Assembly (NCBI GenBank): GCA_963576565.1
Contig: OY755038.1
Span: 205,379,013-205,443,012, forward strand
DNA length: 64,000 nt
Direction of reading: 5' to 3'
Origin: Aspidapion aeneum
Lineage: Eukaryota; Arthropoda; Insecta; Coleoptera; Brentidae
In this document: positions 3,967-64,000 of the stretch, piece by piece
Layout of the letters: the number at the start of each line of letters is the position of its first letter
How positions within the stretch are numbered: position 1 is the first letter of the stretch
The notes under the pieces: generated by a model
What the model was told of the DNA's origin: nothing
Database searches by the model: none
The model's input: the letters and a program-made list of their open reading frames with translations, nothing else
Position numbers and translations under genes: made by a program

Positions 3967-4093
3967 ATTACCACAATCCAAGCGCTAGCATCAGGTGATC
4001 GTCGATCTCCACCAATCAGAGCGTGTGCCGCGCTAAGCGAAGCTTGTGTTTCTTTGGAATGCGAGGGATGATATAGGCCATTGAATATAAGAA
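3967..4093 (+). pseudogene. Degenerate 5' part of the Penelope-like element
   Basis: Just before the intact frame, 4087-4115 resembles, across small indels, the Penelope-family K-[IV]-H-K-x-G-x-P-x-RPI block that precedes the RT core. Sequence further upstream does not align to RT. I infer that the 5' end is truncated or eroded. Confidence 0.35.
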
Positions 4094-5611
4094 GTGCAAA
4101 GAAGGCCCCGACAGCGACCAATTACCAGCTCCAGGGACTCACCGACCAGCACTTTGTCGAGGTTTTTGTTGGACATAATTCAACCACTACAGGGTAAGTC
4201 CGAATCTTTTGTCAAAAACTCGGAACATTTTGTGGAGGTTTTAAAAGGTATCGAATTAGATCCCGGCGATAGATTTGTAAGTTTTGATGTAGAAAGTCTC
4301 TACACCAACGTGCCAATAAATGAGTCACTCAGTATCATTAAAAACAAATTACAAACTGATGATACACTTCACGAGAGAACAACGCTATCGGTGGAGGGGG
4401 TGATGGATCTTTTGGAGCTCTGTCTCCGTAACTCCTACTTTCAAGTGAAAGATAAGTTTTACGCGCAAAATGATGGACTCCCAATGGGTTCATCTCTTTC
4501 GCCAGTGGTAGCAAACATCTACATGGAGTGGTTCGAGGGCCATGCGATCAACACAGCAAGAGTCAAACCAAAACTATGGCTACGATACATGGATGACACA
4601 TTTATTATATGGCCGGAAAATGATGACGAACTACAAAATTTTCTACACCATTTAAACGGTATTCGACCGACAATCAAGTGCACCATGGAAATTGAAAAAG
4701 ATTCGGCCTTACCTTTTTTGGATGTTCTTGTCAAACGATTAGACAGAAACATTCAAACCACTGTATATAGGAAACCTACACACACGGGACAGTACCTAAA
4801 TTTTAAGTCTAATCATTCTGTTGCAACAAAACAAGGAGTTATAAGAAGTTTGTATTTAAGAGCCGTAAATATTTGTAGTAATAATGAAGAATTAACCACA
4901 GAAATTAACAACATTAAAAAGGACTTACAACAGAATGGTTATTCCGAGAAATTAATAAACTCAACGATATTTAAAATTAAAAACAAACTAAATGTACCAA
5001 ATTCTCAAAATAATAATCCGTTAGGTGTTATTAACATTCCATATGTTCAAGGGATTTCAGAAAACATAAGACGAATAGCTAAACACTATAATATAAAAAC
5101 AGTATTTTCTTCGGGAAATACGATAAGAAGTTTTGTAACTAAAACAAAACCAGACAATCCCTCAAATAATAAGGAATGTATTTACCAAATCCCGTGTGAG
5201 TGTGGTAAATCATATGTAGGTGAAACGAAACGCCCTCTTCAGGTTAGAGTAAATGAACATCTAAAAAGTACCCAATTAGGGGATATTGAAAAATCCGGTT
5301 TAGCAGATCATGCTTGGTCAAATGATCACAGGATTCAGTGGTCAGAAGCTAAAGTTTTACATAAGGAGTCGCATTGGCGAAAACGAAAGTTTATTGAAGC
5401 TGCGTATATAATGCAGAATAAAGAAGTTTTCAGTCAACCAAGCACGGACATACCAAACATATGGAAACCACTCCTTAAGGAAAACAGGCGTCTTAGGATT
5501 AAAAAAAGGGGGCGGGCCGTCACACCTGACTGCACACCAAGTAGTATAAGTAGTAGCCTAGAGACTAGATTGTTTAGTTCACACTTGATAACGGTTAGAG
5601 ATACTTACTAA
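4094..5611 (+). CDS. Penelope-like element reverse transcriptase with GIY-YIG endonuclease
   Basis: A 505-residue frame. RT motifs are in order: RPITSSRDSPT at 8-18, SFDVESLYTNVP at 63-74, GLPMGSSLSP at 128-137 and the catalytic YMDD at 165-168, followed by the conserved PFLDVLV and YRKPTHTGQYL blocks. A C-terminal GIY-YIG nuclease follows: CIYQIPCECGKSYVGETKR at 362-380, a His near 405 and an RKFIEA Glu near 435. This domain order is diagnostic of endonuclease-bearing Penelope-like elements, which prime reverse transcription at a nicked target. Full-length members are longer at the N terminus (typically 700-800 residues), so this copy is 5'-truncated and the annotated ATG is simply the first in frame. 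Two further fragments of the same family lie at 22195-22433 and 25360-26180. Confidence 0.93.
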   Translation: MQRRPRQRPITSSRDSPTSTLSRFLLDIIQPLQGKSESFVKNSEHFVEVLKGIELDPGDRFVSFDVESLYTNVPINESLSIIKNKLQTDDTLHERTTLSVEGVMDLLELCLRNSYFQVKDKFYAQNDGLPMGSSLSPVVANIYMEWFEGHAINTARVKPKLWLRYMDDTFIIWPENDDELQNFLHHLNGIRPTIKCTMEIEKDSALPFLDVLVKRLDRNIQTTVYRKPTHTGQYLNFKSNHSVATKQGVIRSLYLRAVNICSNNEELTTEINNIKKDLQQNGYSEKLINSTIFKIKNKLNVPNSQNNNPLGVINIPYVQGISENIRRIAKHYNIKTVFSSGNTIRSFVTKTKPDNPSNNKECIYQIPCECGKSYVGETKRPLQVRVNEHLKSTQLGDIEKSGLADHAWSNDHRIQWSEAKVLHKESHWRKRKFIEAAYIMQNKEVFSQPSTDIPNIWKPLLKENRRLRIKKRGRAVTPDCTPSSISSSLETRLFSSHLITVRDTY

Positions 5612-8390: not shown

Positions 8391-9139
8391 GTATGGAAAA
8401 ATCATAATGATATAAATGTAAGTCTCTAGAATTTTTAGAAAGTTACTTAATCATCTTAATTTTGCTCACAAAAATAGGGTAGCATACAAGCTGTATAATT
8501 TTAGGGCTCTGGAACGAAGTAGCGATGTATGTACAAAATAGCGAGTATTAAAATAGCGGTATCGAAATAGCGACAATCAAAATAGCGATGTATTGAAAGG
8601 GCGACTATCAAAATAGCGATGTAACAAAATAGCGATGTAACAAAATAGCGATTGTAACAAAATAGCGATGTAACAAAATAGCGATGTAACAAAATAGCGA
8701 CTATCAAAATAGCGATGTAACAAAATAGCGACTATCAAAATAGCGATATTTCGGTTCCGGTTTGGCATATAGTTCGACTAAATGGTTTCATTCTTAGAAA
8801 TTTTTTCAAAAAAAAAAAACTTTCCTGACTTCTTTCCCGGGATCCTAGAGGGTGTGAATCCGAACCGAACCGAACCAGCATATTTTTTCAAAACAAAACT
8901 CTCCAGACTTCTTTTCCGGAATCTTAGAGAGTGTGAATCCGAACCAAACCGAATTCGGTTCAGATCGGTTCGGTTCGGATTCAAACCCTCTAGGATCCCG
9001 GAAAAGAATCGGGGAAGTTTTTTTTTTGAAAAAATAAGCTGGTATAGTCAAAATACCAAAGGATATAATAGTGCATTTCGGTTCGTTTCGGTTTGAATTG
9101 GTTTACTTCGATTCGGTTTGGTTTGATTCGGTATTTTGG

Positions 9140-9610: not shown

Positions 9611-9970
9611 TAAAGTGCTCCTTCGACCGAATTATTTTAAATAATAAATCCATACGACGGTATTAATAATTATTTACCTAATCTGTGGCCAAGCCAAACA
9701 ACGGCCTTGAATTTTCGCATCGCATCGAAAGTCGTCGGTGTGACACGTGTCTGGAGCGTGGTCATTCAGTAAACAAAGCGAGTAGGAATCAAAACAAACA
9801 AAACAAAAGTTCAGTGGTGTACCATATCATTTCGATATTTAAAACAATTTTCATCAATTGCGATAAATTAGTGCATATTTTCGACAATTCGTCATTTTTC
9901 TATTTCAGAAGCATTAATTTAGCGTTAATTGTTTATTTACCGACAATTTCGTCATTTCAAAGGTAAAATC
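9611..9970 (+). other. Leader of BEL/Pao copy 2
   Basis: Non-coding, between the LTR and the Gag ATG. A TGCTCCTTCGACC stretch lies just inside the LTR where the primer-binding site is expected; copy 3 has a similar TGGTCCTTC. The tRNA is not identified. Confidence 0.5.
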
Positions 9971-10710
9971 ATGTCTGTCAAAAAAGCCGTACAAAAACGC
10001 AAGGGTTTTTTATCTGCGATCACCGAGTGTTATGTGTTGTCAAAGACCGCGGAAAAGGATGAAAGAGCGAGAAACGAGTTTCAAGTGAGGTATTCCGATT
10101 TGGATGAAACCTTCGATAAATGCATGCTGGCGCATAATGACGTCATTATGTTGATAGACGACACGGACGACGAGGAGTTTAAAACGCAGGATGCGATCCT
10201 TTCAGAAGCTCGTAAATATTTTTATGCGTGTAAGAGGGTTTACTCTAAAATATTTCCGGTTGAGGCCCCATCCTTTTCGGGATCATATGTTCGACAAAAC
10301 GAATCTGAAACTCCAAAACTCAAAGAGTTAGGTATTCCCATATTCCGAGGTGATAAAAAATTATGGCCAAGCTTTTTCGATCTTTTTAATAACATTATAG
10401 ATCAAAATCAAAGTCTAAGTAACGTTCGAAAACTTCAATATTTATTTTCATATCTCGAGGATGAGCCTTTAAAATTGATATCAGGGATTAGCTTATCTGA
10501 TCAAAATTATAAAATTGCTTATGACAAATTAGTCAATAGATATCAAAACAAGCGAGACCTCGCAAATGATGCTTTAAGCTCAATTATGAACTCCACTTTA
10601 AAAAACGAGTCAGCTAAGGAATTGCGTAATTTAATTGACACCTTTTCTGAATCCCTAGAAATTTTAAAATCACTTAGCTTTGACGTTGACAGTTGGGACT
10701 TTATTATTTT
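9971..10710 (+). pseudogene. BEL/Pao Gag N-terminal part, interrupted
   Basis: The frame starts at ATG 9971 (MSVKKAVQKRK), preferred over the upstream ATG at 9929 because copy 3 Gag begins with an equivalent MSTQKQKK. It encodes the coiled-coil-like acidic N terminus and the DUF1759 block: the IPIFRGDKKLW and FDLFNNII motifs, IAYDKLVNRYQNKR, and ELRNLIDTFSESLE. Homology ends at SWDF, about residue 246; copy 3 continues from the equivalent EWDF. From 10711 the frame reads into the inserted hairpin repeat and is meaningless. The rest of the Gag C-terminal half is missing. Confidence 0.9.
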
Positions 10711-10843
10711 AGCTCACACTACTACTATAAGTAGTGTGAGCTATGGTGATCGTAATTTTTTCGAGAAAAAAAAAGTTGCTCCGATTTTAAAAATTTTTAT
10801 ATATCTTTGCGTTTCAGATGATTTTGAAACTTTTTTGTTTTGC

Positions 10844-10882
<39 letters not shown>

Positions 10883-11105
10883 ATGTATGTCTGTCTGTAT
10901 GTCTGTCTGTAACGACCAACCCGCATAACTCAAAAACCGCTTGTCCGATTTTAATGAAATTTGGTACCTAAGTTGGGTCTTGGGCCGTGATGGTCCCATT
11001 TAAAAATGAACAAAATCCACCGAAGGCAAGTCAAATAAAAGGGTGGGGGTAGATTCCAAAAATTAGAGTTTATGTGAAAATATGGCGTGTGTGATATCAA
11101 ACGAA
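10711..11105 (+). mobile_element. Hairpin-ended (TCTG)n repeat, truncated copy inside BEL gag
   Basis: Starts with the hairpin AGCTCACACTACT...AGTAGTGTGAGCT, then a (TCTG)n run at about 10850-10910 and the CCGATTTTAATGAAATTTGG module. It stops within the first of the three internal tandem units found in the full copies at 17648-18388 and 24515-25250. Loss of its 3' part together with the Gag middle indicates a deletion spanning the joint. Confidence 0.9.
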
Positions 11106-12258
11106 ACATTTCTTGATCTCTCACCTATCGATCGCCTATCTTTCGTCAAACAGAAAAAATTATTTCTAGCGTGTTTTCATCCCTTGCATGATGTAGATAC
11201 GTGCAAATCAAAATATTCATGCAGGACTTGCAATAGTAAAAGGCACCACACTTTAACTCATATCTTAGAAACTAATCAAGAGTCTGGAAGCCAAGATACT
11301 AGTTCTGTCATTCACACACCACCTGTCAATAATCTTCATGTGTCATTAAATGCCTCAGGACCTTCAGGTACCTTTCTTTTATGCACCGCCATAATAGATG
11401 TTATGGACGCTTGCGGAAATTTTCAACCTGTAAGGGCACTGCTTGATTCTGGATCACAGACAGGATTCATCAGTGAAAAGTGTATTCAGCGTCTTAATCT
11501 TCCTAGGCGAAGTTACACCACTGAAATATTCGGATTAAATCAGATGTCTTCTTTTACTTCCAAAGGGCTCGTTCAATGTCACATTAAGCCACAAGGACAA
11601 GTCACTCCTTTACTTAATTTCGAAGCAATTGTGGTTCCACAACTATGTTCCAATATGCCTACATTCTCTTTGAACGATAATCAGTGGAAACACTTGCAAA
11701 ACCTTAAACTTGCCGACCCATCTTATTTCAAATCTAGACCTGTGGACCTGGTTATTGGTTGCGAGCTATTCGCACAGATATTCAAGGAGGGCAGGGTTCT
11801 TGGACAGGTAGGGCAGCCTTCAGCCCTTGAAACTATCTTTGGCTGGGTCGTCATGGGAAAGGTTGACGAAGTAGGTAGTCTTACGGAACGAACCAGTTGT
11901 TTTTTAACGAGTCATTCACCTCCTTTAGAGGTCATTCTCCCTAGGTTTTGGGAAATCGAACATTTGCCTAAAAAACAAATCTTATCAAAGGAAGAAAAAC
12001 AGGCAGAATCAATTTTTACTGCTAGTGTAGTACGGCAACCGAGAGGTAGATTCATGGTAGATCTTCCGTTTAAAGATAAAATAAACCCTGACCTAGGAAA
12101 TACTTATCCGCAAGCTTATCGTAGATTTTTACTTCTAGAAAATAGATTAATCAAAAATCCTGATCTGTACACTGCCTATTCAAGTTTCATGCAAGACTAT
12201 ATCGATTCTAATCATATGAGTTTAGTTTTATCTAGTCAACCAAAGGTCGACGTATCGT
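11106..12258 (+). pseudogene. BEL/Pao zinc knuckle and protease region
   Basis: The frame resumes with a Cys/His cluster (FLACFHPLHDVDTC, CRTCNSKRHHTLTH) and the retropepsin motif LLDSGSQTGFIS near 11440-11475, then the GCELFAQIF and GQPSALETIFGW motifs usual between protease and RT. The first residues of the longest open frame (from 11082) belong to the inserted repeat, not to the element. The frame is lost near 12250, where comparison with copy 3 shows a small deletion that removes the FIPHH-type motif and shifts the phase. Confidence 0.88.
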
Positions 12259-13734
12259 TTAAGTACAAAATTAAGGGTAGTCTGGGATTGTTCGGCAGTC
12301 ATCCCAAAAAATATTAGTCTCAATGACACATTGTTATCTGGACCGAAACTTCAAAAGGATATTGCTTCTTTACTCCTTACGTTTCGTCTTAATCCTATTG
12401 CCTACATTGCTGACATCAAACAGATGTTCCGTCAAGTCCTTATCAATCCTTATCACCGTCCTTATCAAAGGATATTGTGGAGGTTTTCTCCACAGGACCC
12501 ACTTTCAGTGTGGGAACTTTCTACTGTCACTTTTGGCATGACATGCTCACCTTTTCTAGCCATGCGTACCTTAAATGAGCTGGCAGAGAGAGAAAAGGAA
12601 CGTTTTCCTATGGCTAGTACTGTTCTAAAAACGTCAATCTATATCGACGATATCTTGGGAACTAGCCCTTCGCTTTCTGAAGCTCTCTCCCTTCAAACAG
12701 AACTCAATGATTTGTTGAAGTCGGGAGGATTTGAACTTAAAAAATGGGCAAGCAATTGTCCTGAGTTATTGGCAACATTGCCAGAGTCCGATCGTCAAAT
12801 GCCTCTCTCTTTCGACAAGGAGGAACCCCACTTTATCAAAGTTTTAGGACTTCAATGGCATCCAAAAAACGACATTTTTTCTTATCAATGCCGAATGAAG
12901 GACAAACCCCCAACCAAACATTTTATTTTATCTATCATAGGGACAATCTTCGATCCCTTAGGTTTTCTTTGTCCCTTGTTGCTACAAGCAAAATTTATTT
13001 TGCAACAGTTGTGGATATCGAAAATAGGCTGGGACGAAGAACCAGATTCTTCTATCATCGACTCTTGGAACAAACTTCGTTCTGAATTCCCGCTTCTTTC
13101 CAATTTTCAATTACCCCGACAAATCAAACTGTCAAAAACCAATACCTGTCAATTCATCGGCTTCTGTGACGCTTCAATTCGAGTCTACGCAGGCGTCGTA
13201 TATTTTCGTGTAGAAGAGGAAAACAATATATCTGTTTCTCTCATATCTGCAAAATCTAGGGTCGCGCCTATAAAGTCACAAACTTTGGCTAGGCTAGAAC
13301 TCCTAGGCGCATTTCTTTTAAGCGAATTAATTGACTTCGTTTTATCTAGCTATGAGGGAAAAATAACTTTTACAAATATCGTTACTTTCTGCGATTCGCA
13401 AGTCGTATTGCACTGGCTTTCATCCCCTCCTAATCGCTGGCAAACCTTTGTTGGAAATCGAGTCAGTAGAATCCAAGAAATCATTCCCTCAAACTCGTGG
13501 CGCTACATTCCTTCTGCTTTGAATGCAGCCGATATTGCGTCACGAGGGGCCACCCCTTCACAGCTCATGTCACATGACATGTGGTGGAACGCACCGTCGT
13601 TTTTGTGGTCTCCCGAAAACGAATGGCCCGATTTTCATAAACCAAAAATGCCGATTGATTTCGGAGATATTAATCTGGAGGAAAAGCCAAAAGTCTGTTG
13701 CAATGCGATAATTGATGTCAACTTCTTAGATTAG
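12259..13734 (+). pseudogene. BEL/Pao reverse transcriptase and RNase H region
   Basis: Frame 1 from about 12259: SLNDTLLSGPKLQ, IADIKQMFRQV, the catalytic YIDDILGT near 12640, GGFELKKWASN, IGTIFDPLGFLCP, and RNase H-like FCDASIRVYAGVVYF near 13163 and FCDSQVVLHW near 13389. It ends at a TAG (13732-13734), beyond which the same frame continues with recognisable Pol sequence, so this is a premature stop rather than a natural end. Confidence 0.9.
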
Positions 13735-15012
13735 CTTCTTATCAAATATTCCTCTATATCAAAAATTCAACGTATCATTTGTTATGTCCTTCGAATAGTT
13801 AACCTTTTTCAAAACCATTCCTATCAAAAACCCACTAAGCCGCCGGACCAAAAAGTTATTTTTGAGAATATTGTTTTTCCTAGCACCGGTGAGATGCAAA
13901 GTGCGTTACTCCTTCTTATCAAACGCGTGCAAGGTTCTTGTTTTTCTGAGCTTTTTTCCGCGTTATCTAAGGATAAACCAATACCGAAACCTTTGCGAAA
14001 ACTTTCACCTTTTCTTGATGAGAATAATATCATTAGAGTCGGTGGCAGATCCGACCTTTTGTCTTATTCTGCAAAACACCCCGTCTTACTTTCGAGTGAC
14101 CATCGTTTAACTACTCTTCTTATCGAGTCCGCTCATCGACAATATCTTCATCCTGGGTTTAAAACATTACATAATCTGCTTTTACAGCAATTTTGGATAT
14201 TATCTGCCAGACGGGCAATTCAAAGAACCATATCCAAGTGCTTGCAATGTTTTAGAATCAACCCTAAACCCTATAGACCGCCCATAATGAGTTCACTTCC
14301 CGCTCATCGAATCAATCAACTAAAACCTTTTTCGAGTGTAGCTATCGACTTTTGTGGACCTTTCTTTGTGATTCCTCATCGTTACCGTGGTTGTAAAGCT
14401 TTCAAATCGTATGTCTGTGTGTTTGTCTGTACGGCCACACATTGCGTGCATTTGGAATTAACCATGGAACTGTCCACCGAAGGGTTCGTAGGTGCATTCC
14501 ATCGATTCATTTCCAGACGCGGAAGCGTGACGCAATGCTGGTCAGATCAAGGCAGTAATTTTATAGGGTTTCGTAACCAATTACTGGATTACGCAAGAAG
14601 TGCTGCCACCAGACTTTCTATTCGTTGGCATCTGGGACCTCCTCTCAGTCCACATTTCAATGGCCTGGCAGAAGCTGGCGTCAAAAGTTTTAAAACTCAC
14701 TTTGTACGAGTTGTCGGCGACCAGAAGTTGTCTATCATGGAGATGTCCACCCTTGCCTGTCGCATAGAAGCCGTACTTAATAGTCGCCCTTTATCTCCTG
14801 CCTCTTCAGACCCACACGATCTTCAACCTCTTACCCCTGGGCATTTTTTGACACTTGAACCCCTTAATTCAGAAATTCCGGAGTCAGATTTGTCCGAGGT
14901 TCCCCTAAATCGGCTCTCGAGATGGCAACTAATCCAAAAACTACATAATGATTTTTGTATACGCTACAACAGCGACACAAGTGGGCTGATTCGTCCCCAA
15001 ATATCAAATTAA
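13735..15012 (+). pseudogene. BEL/Pao integrase region
   Basis: Continuation of frame 1 after the TAG. It carries an HHCC zinc-binding region (HRQYLHPG ... CLQCF, 14129-14260) and the DDE core: first Asp in VAIDFCGPF at 14347, second Asp in WSDQGSNF near 14544, Glu in NGLAEAGVK at 14671. All three catalytic residues are present. It loses phase near 14957, next to a short deletion relative to copy 3. Confidence 0.9.
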
Positions 15013-22150: not shown

Positions 22151-22194
22151 ACTTTTATTTCTTTGTTTGAACAATGATTGATTGGAAACAAAAT

Positions 22195-22433
22195 TTTGAA
22201 ATTCAATTGTCTTTATTCATTTAAAACACGACCTTTAAAGACGAAACGCTCAATTTCCTACACCATCTGAATGGTATTCGACCAACACTCAAATGCAAAA
22301 TGGAAACTGATAAAGATTCGGTTTTACCTTTTTTAGATATTCTTGTCAAACGAAAAGACAGAAACAGTTAAGTCACTGTATATAGGCAACCTACACACAC
22401 GGGACAGTACCTTAATTTTAAGTCTAATCACCA
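22195..22433 (+). pseudogene. Penelope-like fragment with inverted 3' tail at its 5' side
   Basis: 22195-22241 is the reverse complement of the Penelope 3' tail (AATAAAGACAATT, GTCGTGTTTTAAA). It is joined directly to a forward RT fragment, about 22248-22433, matching 4630-4815 of the coding copy (LPFLDILVKR, THTGQYL) with a frameshift and stop. Such inverted joins are characteristic of Penelope insertion. Confidence 0.85.
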
Positions 22434-25359: not shown

Positions 25360-26180
25360 CAAAATAAGAAGTTTGTATTTAAGAACCGTAAATATTCGTA
25401 GTAATAATGAAGAATTAACCACAAAAATCTATAATATTAAAAGGACTTACAACAGAATGGTTATTCCGAGAAACTAATAAACTCAACGATCTCGATAATT
25501 AAAAACAAACTGAATGTAGCAAATTCTCAAAATAATTATCCGTTGGGTTTTATTAAAATTCCATACGTTCAAGGGATTTTAGAAAACATAAGACGAATAG
25601 CCAAACAGAACAATATAAAAACAGTATATTTATCAGGAAATACGATAAGGCGTTTTGTTACTAAATCAAAACCAGAAAATCTCTCAAATAATAAAGAATG
25701 TATTTACCAAATCTCGTGTGAGTGTGGTAAATTCTATGTAGGTGAAACGAAACGCCCTCTTTAGGTTAAAGTAAATTAACATCTACCCAATTAGGGGATA
25801 TTGAAAAATCCGGTTAAGCGGATTACGCATGGCCAAATGATCACAGGAATCAATGGTCTGAAGCTAAAGTTTTGCATAAGGAGGCGCACTGGCGAAATCG
25901 AAAGTTTATTGAAGCTGCGTTTATAACGCAGAATAAAGAAGTTTTCAGTCAACCAAGCATGGACATACCAAATATATGGAAACCTCTCCTTAAGAAAAGC
26001 AAGCGTCTTAGTATTAAAAACGGGGCGGGCTGTCACACCTGACTGCACACCATGCAGTATAAATAGTAGCCTGTAGTCTAGATTGTTTCGTTTACACTTG
26101 AACATGGATGAAGATACTGACTAACCGAAACGTCGTGTTTAAAATAAATAAACACAATGGAAGTCCAAAATTTTGTTTCA
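25360..26180 (+). pseudogene. Penelope-like element, 3' half, frameshifted
   Basis: Aligns with 4845-5680 of the coding copy: the RT thumb region, PYVQGILENIRRIAK, the GIY-YIG core (CIYQISCECGKFYVGETKRPL, whose frame ends at a TAG at 25762) and the C-terminal region in shifted frames, ending with the same CCGAAACGTCGTG and AATAAATAAACACAATGG tail. It is clearly diverged from the coding copy. Confidence 0.9.
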
Positions 26181-33351: not shown

Positions 33352-33540
33352 CACTGGCGTATATATGGGGGGGCCTGGGGGGCCCGGGCCCCCCCCGAAG
33401 CTGAGATTTTTTTAGATATTTTCGACATATTTCATGAATAAAAACATAAAATAGCATAAAATACGCCCTCATGGGGTCTCGGGCCCCCCCCAAAAACTGC
33501 CTCGGGCCCACCCCGAAACGTTTTTCTATATACGCCACTG
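33352..33540. mobile_element. hAT-type MITE with perfect 8-bp duplication
   Basis: CACTGGCGTATATA...TATACGCCACTG, flanked by GGTTGCTG at 33344-33351 and 33541-33548. The interior carries C and G runs and matches the MITE at 7393-7564. Confidence 0.94.
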
Positions 33541-40385: not shown

Positions 40386-41978
40386 TTAGCGTTTCCAAAA
40401 ATCGGACTGGAGCCTTTGCACCAGCTGCCAGCGGGACAGGGTGTTCAACTTGGAATCAGAAAAATCGGGTTCAGGTACGGAATTCAACGGTTCCAGGGCA
40501 AGAAAATGACCAGGGGTCAGTGGAAGAAAGTCATTCGGATCCATACTTTGGGCATACAGAGGCCGGCTGTTTAGTATGGATTCGACCTGACACAAAAAAG
40601 TAAAAAACCCTTCATAGGTTAACCGTTGCTCACCTATTACACGTTTTAAATTTGCCTTGGTGGATTTAACTCCTGCCTCGGCTAGTCCGTTTAGGTGCGG
40701 ACTACCAGGACTTGAAAAATGCCAGGTAATTTTTAGACTGTGACATGCTTCCTGGGAGTACTGTTTGAGTAAACGATCAGCTCCCAAGAACGCGCTACCA
40801 CAATCTGAGTAAATGTCAGAGATTCTTCCTCTTCTTGCCACAAATCTCTTAAAAGCCGCAAGAAAGGTAGGGGTGGAAATATCGGAGGTAAGTTCTAGGT
40901 GAACTGCCTTTGTTGCGGAGCAGACTAAGACAAGAATATAACCTTTGGATACCTTTGCACCTCGGATAGAGAGTTCGGAAGAATGTGGTAATCGACCCCC
41001 CACTCTTAAGCAGCCTTGTGTATCTAGAAAAAGTGAAAGTTTACGAAATTGTTTAGGAAGTAGCTTTGCGTCATTCAAACGTGAAATGAGATCAGCAAAG
41101 ATGGAACGTTGAACATGCCGAACGAGAACAATAAGAGAATGTTGAAGTTCTACTTCGGTAATATTTTCGTTAGGATATTTAGATTTCTTCTCGGTAAGGC
41201 AAAAAATATAGGAAATTATGCGTTGAATTTTCTCTAGGGAAGAGTAACGAGAAAGAAAAGTATCAAGCATGTGTGGTTCAACTGTGCATGTTTGAAATAC
41301 TGATTTTCGTTCTTCCAGAATAACCTCGTTTTCCGGAGGGTCTGGACAGCGAAAATCATCAGGCCAGCTCTCTTTTGGTAGCCTAAGAAAACAAGGACCT
41401 TCCCAATACAAGTCATGTTTGACAAGTTGATTAGGCATAAGACCGCGCGAAGCACAGTCGGCTGGATTTAGCGCTGATGGAATATATTTCCAGGCCGTAG
41501 GAGAAATGGTTTCTTGAATGTGACAGATACGGTTTGCCACAAACGTTTTAAACCTGTGAGGTGAAGCCGCCAACCAGCATAGAACCACTTGGGAATCACA
41601 CCATGCACAGATTTGGTTGAAGTTAAGAATATCTGAATAAGTGTTTTGAATAAAGGAAATTAGGTCGCAAAGTAAAGTGGCACCAAGAAGCTCCAGTCGC
41701 GGAAGACTGACTGTTTTCACTGGTGCGACCTTAGATTTGGCCATTACAAGAAAGGTATGGATTTCTCCGGAAACTGACTCCATTCTGAAATAGACCGTAG
41801 CCGCGTAACCTATCATAGAGGCGTCTGAAAAGCCGTGAAGTTCAATGCTACGTGGTTGATCAATGGAAAGGCGTCTAGGTAAATGAATATTTGAAAGATT
41901 TGGAAGTTTGGTTCGAAATTGATTCCAAACATTTACGATATGCGGAGGAGGCTGAGAATCCCAGTCCAGCTTCTCCTT
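40386..41978 (-). pseudogene. BEL/Pao copy 3: RNase H and deleted integrase
   Basis: Continues the Pol frame after the TAG at 41981-41979: RNase H-like HGFSDASMIGYAATVYFRM, AWCDSQVVLCWL, and integrase parts LRVGGRL, VHLELTSDIST, IYSDCGSAFLG (second catalytic Asp) and NGLAEAGVKS (catalytic Glu). Between HSSEL and KGYILVLV, near 40960-40975, about 125 residues present in copy 2 are missing, including the HHCC zinc site and the first catalytic Asp. The integrase cannot be functional. Confidence 0.9.
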
Positions 41979-43892
41979 CTACAGATCTTGCATGAGATGC
42001 TGAGCAAGTAAAGAAACGGGAGAACAGAAACCTAAGGGATCAAAAATTTTCATGATTTGAGATAAGATACCTCGCTTGGTGCATGGTTTATCTTCTGGTA
42101 CGACCAAGTAGGTAAACGAATCTGAGATAGGATTCCATTGGAGACCTAATATTTTTACAAAATTAGGTTCGGATTTGTCGAAACGAATGGACATTTGTGT
42201 TTCTGATTCTGAGAATGAGGAGAGAAGTTCCGGACTGTTGCTCGCCCATTTTTTAAGTTCAAACCCTCCTAGGCGCAACAGGGAGATTAACTCCGACTGA
42301 AGTTCTTTGGCAGAGGCCACAGAATCCTGCCCAGTGAGCACGTCGTCGACGTAAATGTCTTTAAGAAGCACCTTGGAAGCATTAGGATACCTTTCAGACT
42401 CAAGTTTAGCTAGTTCTTGTATAGTACGAATAGCTAAGTAAGGTGATGACTTAAGTCCATAAACAACTGTTCTTAAGGAGTAGGTTTGGACAGGATCATC
42501 CTCAGAAAATCTCCATAGAATATTTTGATAACGCGTGTGCTCAGGAATAATTAAAATCTGTCGGAACATTTTTACTATGTCAGTAACAAAGGCTACAGCA
42601 TGAATTCGAAAATTAAGTAGACTTTCACGGACATCATTTTGCAGTTTAGGACCTGCGCACAACGTCTCGTTGAGTGAGACACCTCTGGGACTACGTTGAG
42701 ACCCATCAAAGACCACTCTTATCTTCCCAGTGTTCCAGACACTGTGATGAGGGATAAAGTAGGAATTATCCAAGACATCTTTAGATATAGGCGTAGGAAT
42801 AGGTATCATGTGACCAGTGTCTAAATAATCTTGCATAAAATCTTTGTAAGCTTGATAATTAGCTGAGTCTTTGAGAAGTCTAGCTTCCTGAAGCTTGAAA
42901 CGTTTTAAAGCGATTGGATAGGTGTCACCCAACTGGGGTTCTAAGTTTATGAAAGGTAATGGAACGACGAATCTACCTGATTCGTTGCGTGAAACTGATT
43001 GTGAAAATAATTTTTCGCACATAATATCCTCAGGACTGTGATGAACCTTATGTGGAACCTGCTCTATCTCCCAGAAGCGCTCTAGGCAGATATCCAGAGA
43101 TGGTTCGATGGAAGTGTAACAGCTTATGAGTGATTGTGGATTTTGTTGCTTTGAAGTTTCAACTTTACCAATCAGCACATAGGCAAAGATGCTATTAAGC
43201 GCACTAGGTTGTCCACGCTCTCCGTGGATAACTCCCTCTTGTAAGAGATGCGGAAAAAGTTCACAACCTACTAGGACATCAATGGAACTTGGTATATGGA
43301 AGTTTTGATCAGAAAGTTTGATATTGCGAATGTGATTCCACTTGCTCGAGTCGACAGCGCAAGAAGGAATCTCTGTACAAAGTTTTGGAAGTACTAAAGC
43401 CTCAAAATCAAAGGTAGGTCCCGCTTGACCTTGAGGTTTGATAAGACATTTCGTCTTACCTTTGGTATTGGAAGTAGAAAAGAAGCTTTTCGAAAGACCT
43501 AAACGATTTAGACATTTTTCTGAAATAAAGTTTGCCTCTGAGGCAGAATCGAGTAAGATACGAACTGGTTGGTAATGTCCCCTTGAGTCTAACATGTCAG
43601 CTACAACGGTAGAAAGTAAAAAAGTGGAATTTTTGGAAATCATTGTCGCATGACAGTTTGTGGAATGGCTTCCTGACATAGGGGTGCTATTGGAATTGGA
43701 AAGTGGAATATTAGCGTTCTCTGGAGGATAAGAATTAACACTCACAGAGGGCGCTACTGGTTGTGGAACGTGAAGAAGACTGTGGTGCCTAGCTCCACAC
43801 GTAAAGCAGTTGTAGGAGGAGGGGCAATTCACGGTCTGGTGAGCAAAATGTAAGCAATTTTGACATAGATTCACCTGCCGAACATAACCCAT
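41979..43892 (-). pseudogene. BEL/Pao copy 3: zinc knuckle, protease and reverse transcriptase
   Basis: A 637-residue frame: CQNCLHFAHQTVNC and CFTCGARHHSLLH clusters in the first 45 residues, the protease motif LLDSASEANFIS near residue 110 (DSA in place of DSG), and GCELFPHLL. The RT follows with RVVFDGSQRSPRG, VTDIVKMFRQI, the catalytic YVDDVLTG and GFELKKWASN, ending at FDPLGFCSP and a TAG that replaces a codon in otherwise continuous Pol. Upstream, 43893-44028 holds the first knuckle (CYLCSSNHA) with a TGA and a TAA in frame, so the ATG at 43892 is not a natural start. Confidence 0.92.
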
Positions 43893-44330
43893 CCTTTCCT
43901 GTGGACTTTTGTTTTAAAATTCGATACATTTCGATCATGCGTGATTCGAAGAACATAGGTAACATTTTATTTTTGGATTAAAAGTTCTGTTCTGATTATT
44001 TTGTATTTGAGGGTTGCTGCGTTGATTGAATGAATGAATGAATGAATGAAACGTCTTTTATTGATATAAAAAAAATATACATCAACAAGGCGAGATTTAG
44101 CTTTTTTTCTCGGTGGAGAACAATTGCTACTCTTACATCTAACCTTTTAAGTAGACTATTTTTATATAACAATTTAATAAATAATTTATACTATAATTAA
44201 TAGATATTTAATTATTTTTAACTTAAATTTAAATAAGAAATATGCTCTTATATATGTAAGCAAAATTACTAAACCTACAGACGAAGACAAAGGAAATTTA
44301 TTTGCCGAGATATTATACTGGTTATCAAAG

Positions 44331-45038
44331 TTATATTAGTTCACCATTCAAAAGCAACAATTTAGTTTTTGTTTTAAACTTTTCAATAGGCAGTGCTGCC
44401 AGATTATTCGATAATTTATTATAAATATGTGGCGCATTATAAGAAAAGCTTGATTTAAAAGATGAAGTTTTATGTTTTGGCAAGTGAAGTAACTGCGAAA
44501 GTCTCAGATGTCTATTATGACACTGTGACCTAAATTTTAATTTTTTTGCCAGGTATGAAGGAGTTTGTGTCTTGAGTATTTTATGTGTAAACACCAGAAA
44601 ATGGTGTTTACGCCTTTCTTCCATTTTTAGCCATTTTAGTTCCTGAAACGTATGCGAAATATGATCATATTTACGTAATCCAACTATTAATCGAGAGCAA
44701 GTGTTTTGAACTTTTTGAATGCGTCTTTTTTCATTTTCAGTTAGACAATTTCCGTAAACAACATCGCAAAAATTAAAATGTGACAAAACCAAAGCATCAC
44801 ACAGCTCTTTTTTGTTTTTGTTTGATAAGAATTGTTTATTGGCATATATCAGTTTAAGAGAAGCGTATGCTCGTTTTAACATTAAAGAAACATGTGTGTT
44901 AAACTTTAAATGTGGGTCCATATGCAGACCAAGATGTCTAGCATTTTCTTTCTCTTGTTTAAGAATATTGTTCTGAATACGAACAGTAAAATTTTGTTCA
45001 ACTTGCCTAATGTTATTTTTGGATCCAAACAGCATAAA
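44331..45038 (-). pseudogene. LINE ORF2 C-terminal region (frameshifted from RT)
   Basis: About 234 residues from MLFGSKNN: a LGLHMDPHLKFNTHV block, then KRAYASLKLIYA and CDALVLSHFNFCDVVYG, which is the thumb/C-terminal region of CR1/L2-like RTs, ending with a natural stop at 44331. It is separated from the RT by a one-base shift near 45040. The rest looks intact, suggesting a young copy. Confidence 0.88.
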
Positions 45039-46081
45039 CTTGCATTTTTTCTGAATTAAGCTTTAGGGAGTTTTTCTCCGATAAGTTTGAAATATGATTA
45101 AGGTCTAAGTTAAGTAGGTGATTAGGTTGTTGTGGATTTTTGGGGTCAACTTCTATATGGATCTCCGTGTCATCAGCAAATGATTGAGCCTGACAGTGTT
45201 TTATGGAACGAATTATGTCTGCAAGGTATATGTTAAAAAGTAGAGGCCCGAGTATTGACCCCTGGGGTACACCTGATAGTACTTCCTCTTTTTCAGAGAT
45301 ATCATCATTAAATATTACCTGCTGTAGCCTGCTAGTTAAATATTCGTTAAAAAATAAACAAGATTTATGATCGAAACCGTAGTATTTTAGTTTCTGCAAC
45401 ATTAGTTGATGGTCAATCGTGTCAAATGCCTTCGAAAAATCGAGTAGTACCACTGCCATAACCTTTTTATTATCTATACTAGTAAAAATTTCATCAACCA
45501 CTCTGGTTAGTGCAGTAGCAACATCATGACCCTGTCGAAAACCTGACTGATATTCAGAAAGAATATTATTTTTTGTTACGTAATCATAAACCTGCTTATA
45601 AACTAGCTTCTCAAGAATTTTAGAGAGTGCAGGCAATATACTTATCGGCCGTAAATCATTTAAAGAGTCAAGAGTCTGTTTCTTGGGAAGCGGTATTATA
45701 TTGGAAGTTTTCCATGCCTTTGGAAAATAGCCCCGAACAAAACAGCTATTAAAAATGTTGACAAGAAAGGGTTCAATAAAATGCTCACAATACCTCAACA
45801 TAAATAATGAAACATCATCAGATCCCCTTGCATTGCTTTTGAGGCATCGCATAGCCTCCGAGATATTATTTTCATTGATTAGTTGAAATTGAAATGATTT
45901 GTCAGAGAAAGAAAGATTTTCGAACTGATGACGATCAACGGCAAAGTTTTGTTTAAATATTGATGCAAAGTGGCTGTTGATTTCTGATGCTGTTGAAAAG
46001 TCTTTGGGAATTGTTTGGTTATTTTTAGTCCCTACAATGTTTAAGGATTTGAGAGCCCTCCATCTCTCTTTTTGGGTACCC
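45013..46081 (-). pseudogene. LINE ORF2 reverse transcriptase, in frame with BEL Gag
   Basis: The LINE RT motifs are complete: LRPISILPALSKILEK, SGFRQGHDVATAL, LLDFSKAFDTIDH, GVPQGSILGPLLFNIY and the catalytic FADDTE near 45165-45180. The frame has no start of its own: it continues from Gag at 46082, giving an uninterrupted 719-residue Gag-RT chimera (47172-45013). It ends in frameshifted residues near 45040. The 5' truncation removed the endonuclease domain. Confidence 0.92.
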
Positions 46082-47172
46082 TGATTGCTATTTTGTAAAG
46101 TATTTTGTTGATTTCTTGAATTTGAACTTTGATTTGAAATAGTTGTATTGAAAGCAGAAGGTGAATTAAAATTATTAAAACTGTTTCTCTGAAAACTGTT
46201 CTGTTGAGAATTACGCGTAGTTTGAGGTTGTCTAGGGGTTTGATTTTGCCTACTAAAACTGGGCATTTGCACTACAGATTCGAGCGCAACGCAATGATTT
46301 TCTATAAACGTGTAAAGATCAGTGTAGGACGGAATTTCTGAATTGTTTTTCTCTCTACTATAGTAAAGTTCGAAATCAGTCCTCATCTTGACTTCAAGTT
46401 TTGAGAGCATCATGTTAAAAGTAAGAAAGTCCCATTCTTTTGTAGGAAAACCAAGCTCATTTAAGATGGCTAGATTCTCAGAAAATGTATCCAACATGGA
46501 ACGTAATTCTTTCCCAGAACTGGATTTAGTTGAAAGAAAGTTAATAGCATTCAAAGCGGTAGTAGCAATAATTCGTTTATTTTGATACCTCTTTACTAAG
46601 GTTTCATACGCAATGTGATAATTGCTATCTGCGAGGGGAATGGTTTTTACTAGAGAAAGGGCTTCATTCAGAACAGAACTCCGCAATTGTTGAAATTTCT
46701 CTATATCACTTAAATCAGAATTTTGATGTACCATTACTTTAAATAAGTCAAACCAGTGTTGCCAGCTTTTATAATTACCATCGAAAATTGGCAACCTTGG
46801 TTGTGGAAATGATCTTGTATTTGACCTCTGAACAATATTTTGTTGGTTAGGGTTGCTCACGTAATTGACAGGGTTGGCCCTAAAAAGGTCGTAGTAAATA
46901 CCCTTACATTCATAATAAAGGTTGTCAAAGTCTTTTCTAGTTTTATCCTGCTCGTCAAATGAAAGTTTAAACTCTTCGAGAGAGCCAATAATTTGGTTAT
47001 GAAAATTATAGAATTGAGCATGACATTCTTCGACGTCTTCATATCTGGATTTAAACAAAAAGTGAAGCGCTGTATCCGAGTTCGCTTTCAAAGCTACCTC
47101 GTGAGCTTCCGCCATTTGGTTGAAGCTCAAAAGCCTTATGTCGCAAAGTTTTTTCTGTTTTTGCGTAGACAT
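46082..47172 (-). pseudogene. BEL/Pao copy 3: Gag N-terminal and DUF1759 region
   Basis: Begins MSTQKQKKLCDIRLL. It has the DUF1759 motifs PQPRLPIFDGNYKSW and HWFDLFKVMV, IAYETLVKRYQNKR and ELRSMLDTFSENLA, then a Q/N/S-rich linker (residues about 300-363) before the LINE joint. It is the parallel of the Gag of copy 2 and shows what copy 2 lost. Confidence 0.92.
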
Positions 47173-47904
47173 TTTTGTTTTTGAAAGTTAATTTGTTTTT
47201 AAAATTACCCAAAAAAATGCTTAAAATATAGATTAAAATATAACCCGAATTTTAGCAAAAATTAAACAATTTTATTATTTTAATTTTATTAACTTTTTTC
47301 GAAAATTTTGAAATGAAATGTTTGTAAGTTTGTCTGTATGTTATTATTTGAACATATCCTTTAAAAAAAACTTTTATGTCTCACCAAGGATTGAACCCCG
47401 CACCTCTCGATTCCAAGTCGCACACTCTGTGCATACGACTAGCGGTCCTGTTGAAAGTTTTTAAGAAAATCGGTATTCGAAGCGGTATGACCCTGGTGAC
47501 GGCGACACTTGCACCTGCGCGTTAACGCGACACCTGTAAAATCGATAATTAAAGAAAAGTAGATGGAAGAACCGCCTTAAAATTTCACTTTCGGCGTATT
47601 GACGCCACTTTTACTGAAAATGTAATGAACAAAGCGATCAACTTTCTTTGATGAACTAGTAAACTATACGAAATATGTGCATTGGCTATAGCTATTTTTG
47701 AAACGTAATGAATACTTCGGTCAACTTTTAGGAAAATATGTCCAACCGGTGTGAATCAATGGCGTGATTACCGATAAGCCGACTCACTTTTGGAAATGAA
47801 ATTTTGAAAATATATGGAAATTTGGAATTTTTGTAGGAAATTGGTGAACCACAGGAGTCTAGGTAGTTTGGAAAACTATTAATTTGGAGAGAAGGACCAT
47901 CAAA
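47173..47904 (-). other. 5' leader of BEL/Pao copy 3
   Basis: A 730-bp leader, long for this family. Just inside the LTR a TGGTCCTTCTCTCC may be the primer-binding site. It contains the tRNA-like segment below. Confidence 0.55.
47379..47455 (-). ncRNA. tRNA-like segment (B box) in the BEL leader
   Basis: On the minus strand a perfect B box GGTTCAATCC (47397-47388) is preceded by a GACTTGGAATCGAG stretch like a Ser/Leu tRNA anticodon arm and a poor A box (GCTAGTCGTATG). It does not fold as a full tRNA. A captured tRNA-derived SINE head is likely. Confidence 0.4.
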
Positions 47905-55979: not shown

Positions 55980-57203
55980 CAGTCGAACCTCTCTAACTCG
56001 AACCTCTATAACTCGAACCTCTCTATAACTCGAACCTTTTAAGGGCTCTGTAACGAAATAGCGCGTATCAAAACAGCGCGCTCATTTAAGCGCGTGTTCA
56101 AAATAGCGGCTATCAAAATAGCGCGTGTTCAAAATAGCGTGTATTATAGCAGCGCGTGATCAAAATAGCGCGTAGCATAATGGCACGGGTTCAAAATAGC
56201 GCGTATCAAAATAGCGCGTACCAAAACAGCGCGTATCAAAATGGCGCGTATCAAAACAGCGCGTATTCAAAATAGCGCGTGTTTAAAATAGCATGTGTTC
56301 AAAATAGCGCGTCTTAAAATAGCGTGTCTACAAATACCGCGTTTTGAAAGATCGCCATTACAAAGGTCGCTGTTACCAAATAGTTCGAGTAAGGGGTCTC
56401 TATAATATATTTTTTCAAAAAAAAAACTTTCCTGACTTTTTTCCCGGGATCCTAAAGGGTGTAACCAAACCGAACCGAACCGATTCAAACCCCACCGAAC
56501 TAAAATGAACCGAACCAAACCGAAACATTTTTTCAAAAAATTATTTCCCTAAATTAGCTTTCCGATCCTTATTTTCGTAGGTTTCTATTCTAACCTGTGA
56601 CTTGGGGACATTTTTTTTGGTGAAAAAAGGTCAGGGAGTTACTGGAAAAAACGTTTGGGTTCGGTTTGGTTCGGTTGGGTTTGGTTACACACCCTCTAGG
56701 ATCCCGGAAAAGAAGCCAGGGAAGTTTTTTTTTTCAAAAATATGTTAGAAAGAGACCCCTTAGTCGAACTATATGAATTGTGTTAAGTATAGCAAGCCAT
56801 CGATTTATTTAACGGTTAAGTAAGTATAACTTATCTGACCTTGCTCAAACTGAATATACCTAAGCAGACCTGATAGTTGCCATTTTGTACACGCGCTATT
56901 TTAATACGCGCTATTTTGAACACGCGCTATTATGAACACGCGCTATTTTGATACGCGCTATTTTGAACACGCGCTATTTTGAACACACGCTATTCTGATC
57001 ACGCTCTGTTTTGATACGCGCTATTTTGATACGCGCTATTTTGATACGCGCTATTTTGATACGCGCTATTTCGTTACAGAGCCCTTTTAAGTAGTCCCTG
57101 CACTTTTTATATGTATTTTAACTTGAATTTCTATAACTCGAACTCTCTATAACTCGAACTGTTTTGGTTGTCCCTTTGAGTTCGAGTTATAGAGATGCGA
57201 CTG
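55980..57203. mobile_element. Pogo/mariner-type MITE split by foldback element 2
   Basis: The left piece 55980-56035 (CAGTCGAACCTCTCTAACTCG) and right piece 57092-57203 (ending CGAGTTATAGAGATGCGACTG) form inverted ends with TA on both sides (55978-55979 and 57204-57205). ACTCGAACCTCTATA units are tandemly repeated within. Confidence 0.85.
56044..57083. mobile_element. Foldback element 2, tandem-repeat arms
   Basis: GGCTCTGTAACGAA...TTCGTTACAGAGCC with an 8-bp duplication CTTTTAAG (56036-56043 and 57084-57091). The left arm (56044-56370) is an array of AAAATAGCGCGTATC-like units; the right arm (56880-57083) is the inverse. The core carries the same TTCCCGGGATCCTAAAGGG and GAACCGAACC palindrome as foldback element 1. 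Arm units differ between the two elements (GCGCGTAT against GCGATGTAA) while the ends are conserved. No transposase. Confidence 0.92.
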
Positions 57204-61210: not shown

Positions 61211-61325
61211 CGTATTTTATACTATTTTATGTTTGTATTCATGAAATATGTGGAAACTATCTAAAAAAATCTTAGCTTCGGGGGGGGGGCTAGACCACCC
61301 AGGCCCCCCGTTATATACGCCACTG
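61211..61325 (-). mobile_element. hAT-type MITE fragment
   Basis: The reverse complement matches the left two-thirds of 33352-33540 (CAGTGGCGTATATAACGGGG, AAGCTAAGATTTTTTTAGAT) and stops short of the other end. Confidence 0.8.
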
Positions 61326-61825
61326 AGGTCTGGCACACACTATTTAAATAAAGTTATTGCTTTATTACTGCTAGATTTTGAAATATCCATTAAGTCGCTC
61401 TATTGTTAAAAAAAAATTACTTTAAAGTGTAAGCCGAATGCCGATCAAAGAAGAAAAGCAAACGTCGTTTTCTAAATTTCCAAATAATAAAAAAGCAATT
61501 TTCCGAAAGTAGAGTGACTCGATGGAATAGTAAACAAATCCGTTTGGCCCGCAATATTCGCCAGCACTGCGCCCTACTTTTCTCGATATCATTCCCCTAA
61601 AAAAACTTTTGGACCTTTCCTGTTTATTATTTTGTCATAGATTTTTAGAAGTTCATTGTTATCAGGAGAAATTTATTTCATTCACCAAAAAAATTTTACC
61701 ACGTTAGTAGGGTTTGATTTTAAATTAAAAATCAAACAAGTTTCGTGGTTAATCGGGTATAAAGGAGTTTTTGTTTCTCTCATATTTTTCCGTGGGTAGC
61801 TTGAAAGCCTAATGGACACCTAATA

Positions 61826-61873
61826 AGTGTTGACAATTAACTGTTTCGTCCTTATGGGACTCCTCAGAACACT
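61826..61873 (-). ncRNA. Type I hammerhead ribozyme motif, complete
   Basis: On the minus strand, in order: stem I strand AGTGTT; core CTGAGGA (consensus CUGANGA); stem II GTCC-CATAA-GGAC; core GAA; a 3-bp stem III ACA/TGT with loop GTTAAT; cleavage C (GUC triplet type); stem I strand AACACT, fully pairing with AGTGTT. All conserved core bases and both core-flanking pairs (G10.1-C11.1, A15.1-U16.1) are present. Predicted cleavage is between 61832 and 61831. The open stem I and very short stem III are the form known from Penelope-like elements and retrozymes. Confidence 0.85.
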
Positions 61874-62084
61874 ACTTGGTCAATGCGACACTCTTGCGAA
61901 GTTAATTAGACGGTTTCGTTTCTAATCCTATGTAAACAGTGATAAAACTCTAGCAGGAAGCGCCATCTACCGAGATACGAGAGAAATTAAAACAAGAGCA
62001 GGCAAAAATAAACTGCTATACATACCGATCAATGAAAAGACCGATTACAAACAAAAAGAAAAAAAGTAATCCATGACCTACGAC

Positions 62085-63257
62085 CATTGGCGTAGCTAGG
62101 GGGGGGCAGGGGGGGGCCCTGAAGTCCCTCAGGCCCCCCCTAAGATATTTTAGGCCTCCCCTACCGACTACTAGTAAAAGAACATGACGCTGAAAATACA
62201 TACTTTTCTATTATTATTCGGGAAATATTCAAATAAAATAGGTGCATTAAAATTTAAAATCATTCAGATAATGTTTACATTTCAGGAAAAAGCCCTTGTC
62301 TTGCGGAATTAGGCTTTTTCTCTTTAAATTATCGGTAACTTTTCTGCACACATGCAATTTCCCGAAAATATTTTTTAAAATTAAACATAATTATGCATAT
62401 TGAATATTTCATACATGTTGGCGACATCTTGTAAAATAAATGTAAGTTAAATTTCGCATTTAATAAAAACAGCGACCTTTGCCCCTCTGTTTCCGAAATC
62501 GGGTTGTAGATGTAAGGTTATAAAAGACCTTTTTAAACTGTTTTTCTAAAATAAATATAATAATCTTTTTAGTTTTTTTGAGGTTAGCGTTTAGTGTCTT
62601 ATGAAAATTTTCCGATTTTGGTGACAATTTCATAACCATTTTCATATTAAGTTTTCCACGTCGTTAAATGGAATAAATTCGTCGAGCAATACCGGGAAAT
62701 TTTTAATATTAATACTTCTACTCTAAGAGCAGAAATTACCGTTTTAAAGAATTGTATTTTTCGGTTAAATCAAACTGTTGGTCATGATTCTATCAAACAA
62801 CATATAGCAGAAACAGCAAACCTCTACCAACTTTTTAAAGTTGCGAGTATTCTTCCAATTTCAAGTGCAACTTGCGAGAGGTATTTCTCTGCCATGAGGA
62901 GAGTTTTTAATTGGCTTAGAACAACTATGACTCAAGAGAGACACTCAGGTTTGTCATTGTTATTCATAGAAAAAGATGTTGAGGTCGACTTAGACAGTGT
63001 GGTAGACGCTTTCAGTCAGCGACGTAGAAAACTTTCTTTGTAGAATTGCTGAATTACATACTTCCTGTGTATACATATAAATAAGTTGGTAAATGTATTA
63101 TTAAATTTGTTATATTAAAATATTAGAACATTTAATGCGCGTATTTTTTTTATTCATTGCACACTTTGCACGACTCTTTAAAACCTATGTTTGCTTTTTG
63201 TTCAAGATAGACCGGGGCCACGGCCCCCCCTGAAAAGCAAGGCTAGCTACGCCAATG
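62085..63257 (+). mobile_element. hAT element, internally deleted, perfect 8-bp duplication
   Basis: CATTGGCGTAGCTAGG...CCTAGC-like TAGCTACGCCAATG, flanked by CCTACGAC at 62077-62084 and 63258-63265. 1,173 bp; it retains only the C-terminal end of a transposase. Confidence 0.94.
62650..63043 (+). pseudogene. hAT transposase C-terminal dimerisation region
   Basis: The plus strand reads LPISSATCERYFSAMRRV, NWLRTTMTQERHSGLSLL and a short acidic tail ending at TAG 63041-63043. This is the hAT-family C-terminal dimerisation motif (L-P-x-S-A-x-x-E-R-x-F-S and W-L-R-x-x-M), of the ZMYM/P52rIPK-like group. Upstream the frame extends to about 62650 with only weak similarity; the DNA-binding BED finger and DDE core are absent, so the copy is non-autonomous. 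It lies in the same orientation and within the inverted ends of the element above. Confidence 0.85.
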
Positions 63258-63650
63258 CCTACGACAGATCTTCTGCCTTTCAGGCCAGATCAACACTTAT
63301 TGCGTTTTTATCCGCCATCAGACACGTGGGCGTCTATCAGCGGAATTTTTAAGTCGAATAATACTAGCAAACGTGAAATTTAGAAGCCTGAAAGGCAGAA
63401 GAGCTGTCGTAGGTCACGGATTAGTTTTTTTTTCTTTTTATTTGTAATCGGTCTTTTCATTGATCAATATCTATAGCAGTTTATTTTCGCCTAATCTTGT
63501 TTTGGTTTCTCTAGTATCTCGGTAGATGGCGCACCTTGCTAGAGTTTTCTCACTATTTACATAGGATTAAAGACGAAACCGTCTAATTAACTTCGCAAGA
63601 GTGTCACATCGACCAAGCAGTGTTCTGAGGAGTCCCATAAGAACGAAACA

Positions 63651-64000
63651 TAAAAATTCAATTTGTGATAAAATAAATCTATTTCAATTATTTTTTTTGC
63701 TTAATTAAAAACTGACTTTGCTTGTCGACCGTGAAGTAAAATAAACCCATCTCCTAGGAAACTAAACCGATTTTAAAAATCAGAAGAAGAATCCAAATAC
63801 CTTTCAATGGGGGTATTGCATGCCCCCCCTTTATTTTTAAAAATGTTGATTTTGTCAAATGTTTGACATTAGGTTCATTCGACATAATTGCCACTTATTT
63901 CAAATATCCTCAAAAAAAAGTCCCATTAAAAAGCCTTTTTACCAGAAATCGATATCTCTGTCTGTTTAAAAGTTAGAAGGGGAAAGTCTATCCTAAAAGG
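63651..64000. other. No feature recognised
   Basis: AT-rich, with a C-run at 63822. Nothing assigned. Confidence 0.6.

Follow-up and report, generated by a model that had tools for sequence, protein, structure and literature searches.

The window analysed here, which is the whole 64,000-nt stretch of Aspidapion aeneum DNA under study, carries near one end two copies (A and B) of a repeat containing a hammerhead ribozyme motif, together with a DNA transposon remnant that interrupts copy A; fragments of Penelope-like element (PLE) coding sequence lie further away. In the following list and throughout, u-coordinates refer to U, a 510-nt reference unit that is one genomic copy and no consensus.

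4115-5494, 22171-22431 and 25441-26009: Penelope coding fragments, 36 kb or more from the hammerhead
61722..62084, minus strand: copy A, 3' three quarters (u120-497), with the hammerhead inside
61726..61732, no strand: TAAAAAT, a weak candidate for the left target duplication of the A+B pair
61826..61873, minus strand: complete type I hammerhead of copy A, from motif, chance and pairing checks; predicted cleavage 61832/61831
62077..62084, no strand: 8-nt target duplication of the hAT element, CCTACGAC, left copy
62085..63257, no strand: hAT DNA transposon remnant inside copy A, with 15-nt terminal inverted repeats
62651-63043, plus strand: transposase ORF, C-terminal piece, in the hAT remnant (Dimer_Tnp_hAT, 3e-9)
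63258..63265, no strand: 8-nt target duplication of the hAT element, CCTACGAC, right copy
63258..63383, minus strand: copy A, 5' part (u2-127), beyond the hAT insertion
63386..63650, plus strand: copy B (u100-365), lacking both ends of the unit and facing copy A head-to-head
63619..63650, plus strand: 5' half of the copy B hammerhead; stem II contains a C-A mismatch, and stems III and I lack their closing strands
63651..63657, no strand: TAAAAAT, a weak candidate for the right target duplication of the A+B pair

Elsewhere in the window we see coding pieces of a BEL/Pao retrotransposon (9929-15012 and 40386-47187), the second of which carries a LINE-like reverse transcriptase insertion; the best-scoring relatives of a BEL element come from Tribolium madens and Harmonia, then from ants. 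Long palindromes at 56426-56725 and 8802-9033, whose microRNA-model scores are far below the cut-offs, are probably foldback elements. A pair of G-rich short inverted repeats with 88% identity (61211-61325 and 33352-33465) was seen near the hammerhead element.

Read on the minus strand from 61873 to 61826, the motif comprises the core CUGAGGA and GAA, a 6-bp stem I (AGUGUU/AACACU, pairs checked), a 4-bp stem II (GUCC/GGAC) with a 5-nt loop, and a 3-bp stem III (ACA/UGU) with a 6-nt loop. The conserved core, three helices, cleavage triplet and open stem I of a type I hammerhead are all present, and cleavage is predicted between C61832 and A61831, at GUC/A. Stem lengths, core and cleavage C are as given in a preliminary description of this DNA, and its claim of a complete minus-strand type I hammerhead is borne out both by the pair check and by the genomic copies of the core described below.

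The covariance check named in the same description gave a divided answer. Rfam Hammerhead_1 (RF00163) scored the window hammerhead at 25.0 bits against a gathering score of 34 bits, and an Rfam scan of the window at the curated cut-off listed nothing; at an open threshold, E was 0.11 (64 kb, 4,227 families), corresponding by arithmetic to a single-family E of ~2.6e-5, which speaks in favour of the motif. The isolated 48-mer folds poorly: a misfold that pairs the core CUG with CAG is computed at -9.8 kcal/mol versus -6.7 kcal/mol for the native pairing, and the fold z-score is -0.84, with equally good folds in 39 of 200 shuffles. Both the low Rfam score and the poor folding would suit a mere chance resemblance to a hammerhead, but the remaining data contradict it. 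A strict sequence-plus-pairing descriptor found one site in the window, namely 61873-61826, and in simulated 64-kb sequences it gave 0 matches in 200 and 2 in 2,000. A genome search for further copies, also proposed earlier, found the commonest form of the 36-nt core, matched exactly, in 2,754 copies in the 1.286-Gb source genome, with 0 for the reversed control. Among 43 related copies, each stem pair is kept in 37 to 43 that have letters on both sides. For the motif we consider chance resemblance refuted, with next to no probability left to it. As a hammerhead with this many genomic cores receives just 25.0 bits, RF00163 under-scores the family, and counts made at the curated cut-off would miss it; over the whole genome the model gave at least 1 hit, with 74 of 155,298 candidates scored.

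When two 48-mers are folded as a homodimer, both hammerheads are formed and are joined by a 12-bp stem III, at -26.2 kcal/mol. Stem-loop III is a perfect 12-nt palindrome, ACAGTTAACTGT, in 24 of 43 copies, which suggests that the hammerhead may possibly cleave as a dimer. In the window, one changed base relative to ACAGTTAACTGT results in two G-U pairs.

The window hammerhead belongs to a non-autonomous, non-coding unit of ~510-520 nt with one hammerhead in each. The host element, which had been left unidentified, is therefore now identifiable as this tandemly repeating unit. Its true extent was revealed by the tandem loci L047 and L034 (about 500-515 nt), and spacings between tandem cores, read by eye, are 509-521 nt. 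Tandem copies are found at L034, L047, L103 and other loci, and none is tandem at the window locus. L103 is a tandem trimer, in which both complete units are 518 nt long and agree at 498 positions. In U the hammerhead core lies at u340, the GC content is 0.37 and the longest stop-free frame has 56 codons; we saw no LTR and no reverse transcriptase or endonuclease ORF in U, and blastx of the unit against a protein set gave no match below E = 9. A short open frame that follows the hammerhead in some copies showed no convincing similarity among the 240 proteins compared.

The exact 36-nt cores are spread over both strands (1,357 on one, 1,397 on the other), and the window core is one base off this commonest form. 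A 485-nt copy A query matched the genome at least 46 times, that is itself and 45 copies at 81-93% identity, a lower bound from 40 scored candidates among 2,492. CTGANGA..GAAA is kept in 29 of 43 copies from the loci, and in 26 of 43 the GTC is kept too. Searches of viral contigs with two patterns gave no relatives of the element, and no hammerhead core lay near two viral 17-mer matches; sixteen stretches with hammerhead-like matches were observed in bacterial genome contigs. Two loci have features of their own. At L048 (C7:25464519-25465598) there are tandem copies with a period of 352-359 nt, in which the hammerhead part is present in the last copy only. At L019:1501-1547 (minus strand) lies a distinct type I hammerhead of canonical form, which scores 40.6 bits; it is ~120 nt beyond the element copy and on the other strand from it, and perhaps represents a second hammerhead family.

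Copy A spans 63383-61722 on the minus strand, and the 8-nt overlap of its two parts on U is the hAT target duplication. As the hAT remnant interrupts copy A, it must be the younger of the two. Copy B, whose incomplete hammerhead went unmentioned in the preliminary description, aligns with copy A over 263 columns with 24 substitutions, 18 of them transitions, and the 5' ends of the two copies are separated by 2 bp in a head-to-head pair. One copy of the 7-nt repeat TAAAAAT meets A at its usual short 3' end, and the other meets B where B ends; the repeat is weak evidence of one shared A+B insertion, because the element unit has the same sequence there. We conclude that A, a near-full unit, and B, its truncated partner, are probably the product of one old event that was later split by the hAT element.

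Other delimitations of these copies were tried and set aside. A 360-nt unit starting at the cleavage site, which folds with z-scores of -1.62 (sense) and -1.54 (antisense), was rejected as tandem relatives show a different unit. The stretch 63291-63385 had been taken for the 5' end of B, and tandem relatives assign it to the opposite strand, within the 5' part of A; the 12-mer (p ~4e-4) linking it to sequence past the cleavage site of A is a chance match. An end of A ~10 nt past the cleavage site proved wrong, as A extends to ~61722. Finally, A and B do not constitute a MITE with terminal inverted repeats: their outer ends are unlike, and relatives occur singly and in tandem.

The insertion anatomy was mapped at 31 loci (L019, L021-L049 and the window, with L020, the window's own copy, excluded); detailed reading was mostly of the loci with the highest scores. 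They contain 51 element runs and 12 adjacent inverted junctions, all 12 of which are head-to-head, two being the duplicated halves of L024. Among listed core places on C1 from 0.35 to 25.39 Mb, read by eye, 4 of 4 inverted neighbours less than 1.5 kb apart were likewise head-to-head. The 3' ends form two clusters ~40 nt apart: 28 of the 51 runs end at u470-509 (short) and 16 at u520-539 (tailed), with 7 elsewhere. Not one of the 51 runs has a 5' or 3' end 5 nt or less from the cleavage site; this suggests uncut or re-closed RNA as the template for insertion.

Direct repeats of at least 8 nt flank 7 of 27 insertions (L020, L024 and L047 being left out of this count), compared to 3.8% of shuffled flank pairs. 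At L029, L036 and L041 one repeat encloses the whole head-to-head pair, indicating a single insertion event, and at L102, which was picked because it holds an inverted pair, a tailed end and a short end have the 12-nt repeat TTTATTATTTTT on both sides. At L031:1320-1865 a PLE ORF is broken and contains an inserted element copy, for which a 9-nt duplication was seen. For 11 head-to-head pairs classified by eye we count 6 short-plus-tailed, 1 short/short, 1 tailed/tailed and 3 with an atypical end, the window pair A+B being among the last.

These ends bear directly on how the element spreads. A hammerhead satellite multiplied through DNA recombination, without reverse transcription, would account for tandem arrays, and a ~500 bp hammerhead satellite is known in cave crickets (according to the accessible text of PMC2837043). 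However, the copies lie scattered over many contigs, their 3' ends cluster while their 5' ends vary, some have target duplications, and none of the 12 junctions is tail-to-tail, so we regard a satellite origin as highly improbable. Mobilisation by a LINE-type retrotransposon, with inverted pairs arising from twin priming, could draw on the LINE-like reverse transcriptase present in the window at 45013-47187. Twin priming, however, inverts a different part of one RNA, while both partners of the element pairs carry the same part, 3' end included; the two classes of 3' end, moreover, match those of PLEs, and the LINE explanation is in our estimate improbable.

PLEs offer the closer parallel. As stated in the preliminary description, the hammerhead is not adjacent to Penelope coding sequence in the window; the genome, on the other hand, holds PLE ORFs of 807-843 codons, of which 52 of 55 are free of stops (55 of 20,537 candidates scored). 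The three best named relatives of the PLE protein are from Anthonomus grandis (65%), Harmonia axyridis (50%) and Diabrotica virgifera (42%), followed by a termite and then a longhorn beetle. Taken with the relatives of the BEL element, they point to a beetle as the probable host, mobile elements being an imperfect guide. Among the 55 resident ORFs, neighbours less than 8 kb apart comprise 12 head-to-head pairs, 1 tandem pair and 1 tail-to-tail pair, the last 5.6 kb apart. Outer ends were read in 10 of the 12 head-to-head pairs, and all 10 are short-plus-tailed, the tailed 3' end being ~32 nt longer than the short one; a direct repeat of 12-15 nt was found at 9 of the 10. The anatomy of the hammerhead element is that of the resident PLE, although less regular than in the PLE itself. 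This match ties the element to Penelope machinery despite its having no Penelope ORF. Published work offers a basis for such anatomy: a PLE protein is reported to cut the two DNA strands and to prime and extend on each, with reverse transcription starting internally, which explains the optional tail (PMC11167929). According to the accessible text of PMC3846280, PLE inserts are mostly head-to-head; its examples include one inverted repeat that bears a 31-bp tail, and duplications of 9-10 bp.

Sequence comparison of element and PLE gave negative results. The unit and 30 PLE loci have no common sequence at blastn E <= 1e-3. The 3'-end similarity between element and PLE is not significant, with 78 of 500 and 600 of 1,000 shuffles scoring as well; a 3' tail common to both was not found. 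Rfam at E up to 1 found no hammerhead in 8 of the 30 resident PLE loci, and a loose core pattern run on all 30 gave 8 places, none hammerhead-looking by eye. The PLE loci (L052 to L081) share a conserved hairpin with GAAACGTC after it. All 30 have it at their downstream end and 27 of 30 have it upstream of the ORF as well, for example at about 1433-1477 and 3988-4032 of reverse-complemented L052; with some uncertainty, this hairpin looks like a minimal PLE hammerhead whose core bases have changed (TTGATAA).

PLE pseudo-LTRs can carry hammerheads, as described in the accessible text of PMC7761336, and the unit might accordingly be a PLE deletion derivative, a pseudo-LTR from some other Penelope-like family that has multiplied in the absence of the ORF. 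Insertion would work alike in that case, the anatomy is the same, and with 55 of 20,537 candidates scored just one PLE family has been sampled. On the other hand, tandem copies of the unit recur every ~500-520 nt without an intervening ORF, and the unit is absent from the 30 loci of the sampled family. PLE coding matches lie near 2 of 30 element loci, in one of them (L031) because the element was inserted into a PLE ORF. PLE hammerheads are also described as minimal, whereas that of the element has helix III. On balance such a derivative seems unlikely.

Several known systems resemble the element in part. It has in common with the metazoan non-LTR retrozymes of Cervera & de la Pena 2020, as far as the accessible text of PMC7229834 goes, a type I hammerhead, a short non-coding tandem unit, GC below 50% (here 0.37), many copies, strongly self-paired RNA, target duplications of more than 4 bp where present, and a genome that also contains PLEs. 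It differs from them in its unit of ~510-520 nt, outside the 170-400 nt given there, and that text makes no mention of frequent head-to-head pairs or of two classes of 3' end. With PLEs it shares head-to-head inserts, partial tandems, 5' truncation, an optional 3' tail, target duplications of similar size and a hammerhead (PMC11167929; PMC3846280, accessible text), but it is without an ORF, has no sequence common to the sampled resident family and possesses helix III. pDo500 of Dolichopoda cave crickets is similarly an insect hammerhead repeat of ~500 bp, for which single and dimeric forms were proposed, a likeness drawn by description; the accessible text of PMC2837043 does not describe PLE-like insertion. 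Plant LTR retrozymes are likewise non-autonomous hammerhead elements with dimeric or tandem copies, but the accessible text of PMC7229834 sets them apart by their LTRs, their type III hammerheads and duplications of 4 bp.

We consider that the element is quite probably an animal retrozyme, or a close variant of one, inserted by PLE machinery, and that this is the best explanation of the data. The folding of the unit counts in its favour: circular RNA of the L103 unit is computed at -138.2 kcal/mol, better than shuffled sequences (z -4.19, 60 shuffles). Other observations count against it. The antisense of that unit also folds well (z -3.38), and the unit is longer than the published range. With no sequence common to the element and the sampled PLE, recognition of the element RNA by the PLE is unexplained. 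There is no flanking repeat of 8 nt or more at 20 of 27 insertions, and the short-plus-tailed arrangement is seen in 6 of 11 element pairs versus 10 of 10 PLE pairs. The metazoan retrozyme is an element kind already known, and the element is not a new kind of retroelement. As to the earlier suggestion of an undescribed hammerhead-carrying retroelement, a literature search, mostly of papers outside subscription, found no report of this hammerhead family or of PLE-like anatomy in a retrozyme.

A more specific version, to which we give about an even chance, is that a retrozyme is inserted in trans by the PLE, with both strands primed, two fixed internal start sites, uncut or circular RNA as the template and no common tail. 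In the most likely cycle, tandem copies would be transcribed as read-through RNA, the hammerhead would cut between units of the transcript, and some of the cut units would be re-closed into circles. The PLE reverse transcriptase/endonuclease would cut both strands of an AT-rich target and prime on both; with uncut or re-closed RNA as template, reverse transcription would begin at either of two fixed positions inside the element. Such a process would leave head-to-head pairs as well as copies that are single or in tandem, with 5' ends that vary, 3' ends that may or may not be tailed, and target duplications of ~9-14 nt. Self-cleavage, RNA circles and PLE action in trans are the steps that we infer here from sequence.

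The authors of the animal retrozyme work have named PLEs as a strong mobilisation candidate on the basis of co-occurrence and common traits (PMC7229834; PMC7761336, accessible texts). What is new here is locus-level evidence for this suspected partnership. In one genome there are thousands of intact hammerhead cores and a PLE family with intact ORFs, both with the same unusual insertion structure; a single protein and a single RNA would now suffice to test the suspected partnership of retrozyme and PLE.
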